Shown: piece after piece, positions 62,693-64,000 of the stretch
How the letters are laid out: each line of letters starts with the position of its first letter
How positions within the stretch are numbered: position 1 is the stretch's first letter
Origin: Candidatus Peribacteria bacterium
Lineage (GTDB): Bacteria > Patescibacteriota > Gracilibacteria > Peribacterales > Peribacteraceae
Length of the DNA: 64,000 nt
Assembly (NCBI GenBank): GCA_023038255.1
Contig: CP082927.1
Coordinates: forward strand, 944,146-1,008,145
Reading direction: 5' to 3'
Position numbers and translations under genes: made by a program
Notes under the pieces: generated by a model
The model's database searches: none
Told to the model about the DNA's origin: nothing
Seen by the model: the letters and a program-made list of their open reading frames with translations, nothing else

Positions 62693-63280
62693 ATGTCTGC
62701 ACACTCTTCTGTCGTATCGCACAAAGGGTACTATCTTTTTTTGATGGCAGTCCTTCTGCTCACCGTCAGTCAGACAGCATCTGCGACACTCTGCAGCAAA
62801 AAGGTAAGTGTGATGAGCGAGTATCTGTCGGCAGACATTGTGTTCATCGGACATGTCACGCGCACGAAACAGCTGAAGGAGCCTGCATCGAGTAGTATGT
62901 ACACTCTGAAAACAGACGCGCTCTTGAAAGGGTGGGCCATGGGAGAGGTGCAGATTGAGAACAATGGATTCGGTCTTTTTTTAGAGGCGGGACACACCTA
63001 TATCCTCGCAGTACATGAAAGCAGCAGGAATGTCGGAATGTACCGTGTGGATGATTGTATCAATAACAAGCCGATCGACAGCAGGATCGCTGCACTTCTG
63101 CGTTTTCTGCCTGTTTTCGGGCTCATTCTTATCACCCTCTGCGGCTATGGACTGCTGAAAGTCCGGTCATCGGGCATGAAAAAGTGGAACAGGATTCTGG
63201 CGCAGACAGGACTCGGTATTGTCATGCTCCTGGTTGCCTACTCGTCGGTCCTCCCGCTCATCGGTCTGCTGTTTTTATAG
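62693..63280 (+). CDS. Membrane protein with exported N-terminal domain, unknown
   Basis: A 195-residue protein. Residues 13-32 are a signal sequence (YLFLMAVLLLTVSQTASA). The exported domain (33-130) has two Cys (near 34 and 121, CSKK and DDCINN) that may pair. Two membrane helices (about 137-157 and 172-192) follow. In topology it resembles tissue-inhibitor-of-metalloproteinase-like small exported domains (LCSKKVSVMSEYLSADIVF), but I cannot confirm that. It overlaps the 3' end of uvrC by six bases, convergent. Confidence 0.7.
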   Translation: MSAHSSVVSHKGYYLFLMAVLLLTVSQTASATLCSKKVSVMSEYLSADIVFIGHVTRTKQLKEPASSSMYTLKTDALLKGWAMGEVQIENNGFGLFLEAGHTYILAVHESSRNVGMYRVDDCINNKPIDSRIAALLRFLPVFGLILITLCGYGLLKVRSSGMKKWNRILAQTGLGIVMLLVAYSSVLPLIGLLFL

Positions 63281-64000
63281 TACCTGCCGCAGCCCCGCGA
63301 TCTGCTCTTCACTAATCACCTCCAGCAGCGTCTCATCTGTCTGCTTCCGGATGGTATCGACGTCGCCGAATGTCAGGAGCAGTTTGCGCTTCCCCTCTTC
63401 GCCCAGTCCCGGCACACGATCGAGCTGTGATTCGAATGCATGTTTCGAGACACGCTTTTTGCGGTGGCGGTTTGCAAAGCGGTGTGCCTCGTCACGCAGG
63501 CGCATCAGCATGAATTTGGCCTGGCTGTCTTTCGGGAAAATAATCGGATCGGATTTTCCGGGCACAAAGACTTCCTCTTCGCGCTTCGCGAGACCGATCA
63601 CAGGAATCTGGATATCAAACTGCTTGAGCACGTCGTGCACCGTACTGAGCTGCCCCTTGCCGCCGTCGATCACAAGCAGATCCGGAGGTGTGCCAAGCGA
63701 GCTGTCTGTTTTTTGCGATGCCGAGTCATAGACCATCACCATTTTCTCGCCACACTCTTCCAGGCCTTTCGGATTTTTGAGCACATGCCGGAACCCGAGC
63801 GACGCATATTCCTGCTCCAGTGATGGATCGATACACACATACACTTTCCCTTTTTTCACCGTCCGCAGAATAGCTCTGATAAGAAACTGTCCGAGCTTCG
63901 TGTGCTGGAACTGCTCATCAATCCAGAGCGAAGAAAGCTCGACCGTTTTACTCTCATGCTGATGCAGTCTCACAAATCCCATCAACTCACTTTCATGTCG
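63275..64000 (-). CDS. uvrC: UvrC C-terminal part with GNAT-like domain in front, truncated at window edge
   Basis: 241 residues visible; the frame is open at base 64000, so the N-terminus is missing. From about residue 105 the sequence is UvrC: PDLLVIDGGKGQLS (second catalytic Asp), VIGLAKREEEVFVPG, RLRDEAHRFANRHRKKR (catalytic His) and the helix-hairpin-helix RVPGLGEEGKRKLLLTFG. UvrC makes both cuts in nucleotide excision repair. The visible segment before it, about 90 residues, does not look like UvrC; it reads as a GNAT acyltransferase (ELSSLWIDEQFQHTKLGQFL, then a Y-x-x-LGFRHV end). Where one would expect the first half of the RNase H-like domain stands this domain. The missing upstream part decides whether it is an insertion. 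Confidence 0.82.
   Translation of the reverse strand, partial: RHESELMGFVRLHQHESKTVELSSLWIDEQFQHTKLGQFLIRAILRTVKKGKVYVCIDPSLEQEYASLGFRHVLKNPKGLEECGEKMVMVYDSASQKTDSSLGTPPDLLVIDGGKGQLSTVHDVLKQFDIQIPVIGLAKREEEVFVPGKSDPIIFPKDSQAKFMLMRLRDEAHRFANRHRKKRVSKHAFESQLDRVPGLGEEGKRKLLLTFGDVDTIRKQTDETLLEVISEEQIAGLRQVL

Follow-up and report, generated by a model that had tools for sequence, protein, structure and literature searches.

Few repair proteins of bacteria are as conserved as UvrC, subunit C of the UvrABC excinuclease. In the solved UvrC structures, the C-terminal RNase H domain contains a loop of about 5 residues at a position that is of interest here. The UvrC described below shares all core domains and the catalytic residues with the UvrC family (TIGR00194) but, unlike the solved structures, has about 170 extra residues, with a GNAT domain among them, which split the RNase H domain. 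The GNATs that this insert resembles in fold and profile are ElaA (which also shares the Lys of its CoA loop), ArgA/N-acetylglutamate synthase (NAGS) and PRK07757-like proteins, from which it differs in not being free-standing. We found no description of an enzyme domain nested in the 5'-incision domain of UvrC in the open-access PMC papers searched.

Results

The uvrC gene and its genome

The window (the whole stretch of 64,000 nucleotides that was analyzed) ends within uvrC. The part of the reading frame inside it, on the minus strand at 64000-63275, has no interruption and accounts for 241 residues (ORF list), the C-terminal third of a 782-aa UvrC (P0001) whose gene runs past the window end (G000:C1:1007420-1009768, minus strand, corresponding to L002:2421-4769, minus). 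The initial annotation had described an open frame without any separation of a GNAT part from UvrC. Inspection of the sequence beyond position 64000 bears this out, as the frame continues unbroken to a start codon 782 residues before the stop, with UvrC domains on both sides of the GNAT, and a search of the organism's own genome found neither a frameshift nor an internal stop in the full frame. Features within the window are collected in Table 1.

Table 1. Features of the uvrC gene that fall within the window
Feature	Position in the window	Strand	Evidence
3' part of uvrC, residues 542-782 and stop	63275..64000	-	ORF, own-genome search, TIGR00194
Visible piece of the inserted GNAT, residues 542-633 (beta2 to last strand)	63725..64000	-	Pfam, AlphaFold2 secondary structure, Foldseek
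QHTKLG, residues 573-578, where GNATs have their acetyl-CoA pyrophosphate loop	63890..63907	-	Alignment A3, motif count
YASLGF, residues 606-611, Y-x-x-x-G-F motif of the GNAT fold	63791..63808	-	Alignment A3
UvrC RNase H endonuclease domain, second half, residues 647-728	63440..63685	-	PF08459, 2nrt alignment
Asp653 of the RNase H domain	63665-63667	-	2nrt alignment; invariant in alignment A1
His714 of the RNase H domain	63482-63484	-	2nrt alignment; invariant in alignment A1
Helix-hairpin-helix-like C-terminal tail, residues 729-782	63278..63439	-	2nrt alignment to residue 776; HHH_5 E=0.15

As the window cuts the gene, it could not by itself exclude an assembly, frameshift or gene-boundary artefact that joined a GNAT gene to uvrC. 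Such an artefact is vanishingly improbable in view of the single 782-aa frame in a single-contig genome, and is refuted by dozens of independent assemblies in which the GNAT is likewise flanked by UvrC on either side. The continuous frame and the recurrence in other genomes likewise exclude a frameshift or a separate GNAT gene.

The host genome consists of one contig of 1.24 Mb (99% complete), and closed Ca. Peribacter genomes are similar in size (PMC4736985). The nearest named relatives are Candidatus Peregrinibacteria and Peribacteria, and the host very probably belongs to this lineage, which together with its relatives forms a large group of tiny bacteria that are uncultured. Since the genome has a single uvrA, a single uvrB and no other uvrC, its excision-repair set is complete and this protein is the UvrC at work in it.

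On the opposite strand, a 195-aa ORF (62693-63280, plus strand) runs 6 bases into the end of uvrC; it is signal-peptide and membrane-like by eye and has no Pfam match. Just beyond the window, an 802-aa protein (L002:6532-8937, minus strand) combines a sugar-transfer-associated ATP-grasp domain (PF14397) with a MATCAP peptidase (PF08014), and a 7TM_transglut protein (PF14402, L002:9040-9999) adjoins this fusion protein.

Anatomy of the UvrC core

The full protein scores 498 bits with TIGR00194, the NCBIfam uvrC equivalog (cut-off 285.45). Pfam places a GIY-YIG domain (PF01541) at residues 23-101 (E=7.7e-11; 1yd6 was also matched) and the UvrC RNase H-like domain (PF22920) at residues 274-387. 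The RNase H endonuclease domain (PF08459, E=1.9e-45) is recovered in two pieces, the second at 638-717. The second half of this domain is also found with the 241-residue window piece alone (1.1e-22). The UVR motif (PF02151, residues 239-259) gives only a weak match, with E=0.018 and 15.2 bits versus a cut-off of 21.5, which is passed by the relatives L049, L050, L089 and L082. The (HhH)2 segment could be aligned with 2nrt to residue 776, and the Pfam match is weak (HHH_5, E=0.15). In four other UvrCs (L015, L018, L032, L034) the RNase H domain is the last part of the protein, the (HhH)2 domain being seemingly absent; many UvrC profile matches in the class of the host end at profile position 330-338, as if without (HhH)2.

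Residues 401-476 and 647-776 align to residues 7-79 and 85-212 of the T. maritima UvrC chain (2nrt), so that about 170 residues are present in the query where the known structure has about 5. Asp423, Asp653 and His714 are aligned with 2nrt and invariant in 45 aligned UvrCs (alignment A1). They match D367, D429 and H488 of the T. maritima protein, which we take to be its catalytic residues, and by this comparison the nuclease residues of the present UvrC appear intact.

A GNAT domain within the RNase H domain

A complete GNAT domain lies within residues 476-646, where it takes the place of a short loop (about 5 residues) that joins the two halves of the C-terminal RNase H domain. In the full protein, three GNAT families match residues 532-614 (E = 2e-7, 3.2e-7 and 4.3e-7), all above their gathering scores (PF13673, 31.5 bits versus 23.6; PF00583, 31.1 versus 20.7; PF13508, 30.7 versus 27). 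Even the window piece alone exceeds the gathering scores of Acetyltransf_10 (7.6e-6) and Acetyltransf_1 (5.8e-5). The GNAT matches have one piece of UvrC_RNaseH_dom on either side, so the GNAT is an insertion within this domain. Of the two placements offered initially, directly in front of the nuclease core or inserted into it, the second holds and the first is excluded.

AlphaFold2 predicts the insert alone with GNAT topology (pLDDT 89.1, pTM 0.84). For the full protein, the mean pLDDT is 85.5, and about 90 in the insert except for the disordered residues 518-529; the pTM is only 0.56, so that the packing of the domains in this model is not trusted. A Foldseek search with the insert gave 469 matches at E<=0.001, and those listed are GNAT-fold acetyltransferases or GNAT-containing enzymes. 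The top match is the N-acetylglutamate synthase 2r8v (E=8e-8, TM 0.62), and ElaA is found with TM 0.61/0.69. In profile comparison, ElaA is the closest relative with a solved structure (1.1e-9), and the ArgA-type 5yge is matched with 6e-7. No named acetyltransferase was reached at NCBIfam cut-offs. The GNAT similarity that had been noticed ahead of the nuclease core was thus recovered by Pfam, AlphaFold2 and Foldseek alike, and on these models the insert is a real GNAT domain, predicted to fold independently.

Distribution among UvrC proteins

The comparison covered 50 UvrC frames found in the first 58 genomes and a further 50 or so that sample the whole class, the genomes being mostly metagenome-assembled. 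The insert is recognizable in 42 of the 46 UvrCs of family f1, that of the host. Among the 46, 41 have a full GNAT, one (L036) has a 90-aa GNAT remnant, two (L019 and L052) have unrecognizable inserts of 145-148 aa, and two (L032 and L034) are cleanly without insert, and their genomes contain nothing further that matches the insert profile. Outside f1, a profile made solely from f1 inserts recognized a GNAT in 39 of the 52 UvrCs of the class (E<1e-3). Of 49 inserts from other families, 40 were detected with this profile at the same threshold, the best of 980 shuffled inserts reaching 0.011. With f1 counted in, the GNAT insert is present in 22 of the 29 families sampled; in families f28 and f31 the GNATs are shortened and degenerate. 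The sampled TGA-recoded families have no insert (f14 and f19 by full reading, f10 and f18 by match spacing).

In a survey of 240 genomes of the phylum, almost all of those listed from outside the class have PF08459 in one piece, and G305 (family f48, locus L082) is the one clear GNAT exception among them. A search for the same arrangement in related genomes, as the initial annotation had proposed, found it in many independent genomes, and judged by these sequences the GNAT insert is class-wide and not peculiar to this genome. An insert general to bacteria was ruled out for the sample, as insert-length matches among 79 named loci were found in Peregrini/Peribacteria only. A single spanning profile match was dropped as a test for presence, since the genome of L049, with a hydrolase at this site, also gives one.

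Other occupants of the insertion site

Three UvrCs of the class, each from a single genome, have the same insertion point as the query and inserted folds that are unrelated to GNAT, flanked on both sides by UvrC domains in one frame. In L049 (259-2799, plus strand), from another family of the class, the site contains an alpha/beta serine hydrolase (PF06821, 7e-12 on the insert), in L050 (310-2649, plus strand) an aminoglycoside-adenylyltransferase-like nucleotidyltransferase (PF10706, 1.7e-6), and in L089 (193-2664, minus strand) a DUF559 (Vsr-like) nuclease (PF04480, 8e-35). By eye, the Ser, Asp, His triad of the L049 hydrolase is seemingly kept. The DUF559 nuclease is followed by a SPHPDPLPEGEG-type repeat peptide, which suggests recent mobile DNA. 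In L087 (1760-2710, plus strand) the 317-aa UvrC insert can be read as two GNATs in tandem, the second recognized by eye and only weakly by profile. In the UvrC of L097, from another part of the phylum, 69 residues in this loop resemble translated short repeat DNA (VIPRKAGIQ).

Loss, decay, doubling and the presence of unrelated domains at the same site point to a permissive, non-essential insertion hotspot.

The closest free-standing homologue of the insert that was found (L206:1450-1896, plus strand; E=1.1e-28 with the insert profile) is a separate 149-aa gene of the TGA-recoded genome G075, from a group whose sampled UvrCs are without insert. It is a possible donor or escaped copy.

Inheritance and selective constraint

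A tree of the UvrC core was built without the insert (SH-aLRT support, quick search). Family f1 forms one clade on this tree (100), and the f1 inserts form one clade on the insert tree (99 SH-aLRT). L034, which has no insert, falls inside a group of GNAT carriers (97 SH-aLRT), which reads as a loss; L032 is inside the same larger clade, and the decayed pair L019/L052 forms a clade of its own (97). The f6 clade (100) brings together two GNATs, one nucleotidyltransferase, one DUF559 nuclease and one bare loop. Core and insert distances are correlated (Mantel r=0.26 within f1 and 0.50 for the other members of the class, with p=0.001 in both), as expected under mostly vertical inheritance. As to a horizontal or independent origin of the L082 insert, the L082 core groups with the outgroups in the free tree, but a clade of the class with L082 was not rejected (p-AU 0.88). 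The f6 GNATs (L042, L116) are found near the stand-alone GNATs (support 80), which weakly suggests an independent origin for them; a tree with the stand-alone proteins apart from all inserts was not rejected (p-AU 0.68).

At unsaturated dS, dN/dS is about 0.14-0.38 for the insert and, in most pairs, about 0.10-0.14 for the N-terminal core. Most pairs show a dN two to four times higher in the insert than in the core, a contrast that is approximate because dS is near saturation in most of them. According to these figures the insert is constrained, but clearly less so than the nuclease. A functionless insert that is merely tolerated and decays by drift would explain the higher dN as well as the repeated loss, shrinkage, decay and replacement. 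We consider such an inert passenger quite improbable, because dN/dS is clearly below 1 (misfolding avoidance alone could account for part of this), the insert persists class-wide in small genomes, and its fold and motifs are conserved in f1.

The putative acetyl-CoA site

The Tyr of the Y-x-x-x-G-F motif is at the usual general-acid position of the GNAT fold, and its Y and F are invariant in alignment A3. Compared with the Q/R-x-x-G-x-G/A pattern, the CoA loop of the window has kept the Q and the last G, and the first G is replaced by K. The first Gly is K, R or H in most f1 members; E. coli ElaA (RGEKVG) has the same K variant as the RGxKLG consensus of these inserts. A loop with R/Q as its first and G/A as its sixth residue is kept, together with the Tyr and the GF, in 36 of 42 f1 inserts and in 17 of 41 GNAT inserts from outside f1. 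The motif is lost in L006, L012, L017, L022, L028 and L036 of f1 and in the remaining 24 of the 41. As most f1 members have kept the signature of the site, acetyl-CoA binding by the insert is plausible.

The main rival of the accessory reading favored below is that the GNAT is a working acetyltransferase or acetyl-CoA sensor, which would modify a repair partner (UvrB, UvrA or another) or make the 5' incision depend on the metabolic state. A complete GNAT fold that is closest to NAGS/ArgA, ElaA and other acetyltransferases, the CoA-loop G and Tyr kept in most of f1, and purifying selection on the insert would all fit this idea. We nevertheless regard it as unlikely, if worth considering, given the altered first Gly (although ElaA also has K), the motif losses in the six f1 loci and in more than half of the other inserts, the retention of UvrC in lineages without the GNAT, and the unrelated domains at the same site elsewhere. 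An extended version, in which the loop between helix A and strand 4 is a module-swapping platform of the class (for GNAT, hydrolase, nucleotidyltransferase and nuclease) and the GNAT is also an active acetyl-CoA-dependent regulator that couples repair to metabolism, is improbable.

Discussion

With a probability of roughly 0.6, we favor the reading that the GNAT insert is an accessory under weak selection, not essential to the cell and housed in a permissive loop of an otherwise ordinary UvrC. It is persistent, foldable and has mostly kept its CoA site in f1, yet it is lost, decayed or replaced elsewhere, as expected of a dispensable accessory. The sole UvrC would make both incisions of excision repair, the GIY-YIG domain the 3' cut and the RNase H domain the 5' cut. 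The GNAT would sit in the surface loop that joins helix A to strand 4, a connection that in the RNase H fold is away from the active-site end, and this loop would tolerate inserts. The GNAT probably entered the loop early in the history of the class and was then mostly inherited with uvrC. In most f1 members the GNAT would keep the features for acetyl-CoA binding and not be needed for incision, and its most likely present role would be that of a docking surface or CoA-binding module. The comparison of genomes shows the anatomy of the domains, their inheritance, the losses and replacements and the relaxed constraint, and from it we infer the tolerance of the loop, the non-essentiality in vivo and any CoA binding.

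Two observations speak against the accessory reading. Motif retention together with dN/dS well below 1 would amount to more constraint than an inert passenger needs, and the insert persists in most of the sampled families. Among the roles considered at the outset, namely acyl-CoA sensing, modification of a partner and a purely structural part, the losses, decay and replacement favor the last; sensing or modification is less favored, though possible.

The series of inserts at this single site, some intact or doubled and others decayed, deleted or swapped, represents a natural experiment on the tolerance of a nuclease for the insertion of whole domains, and the insertion loop marks a spot for placing reporter or regulatory domains into UvrC. 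The GNAT in UvrC also makes an acetyl-CoA input into excision repair directly testable.
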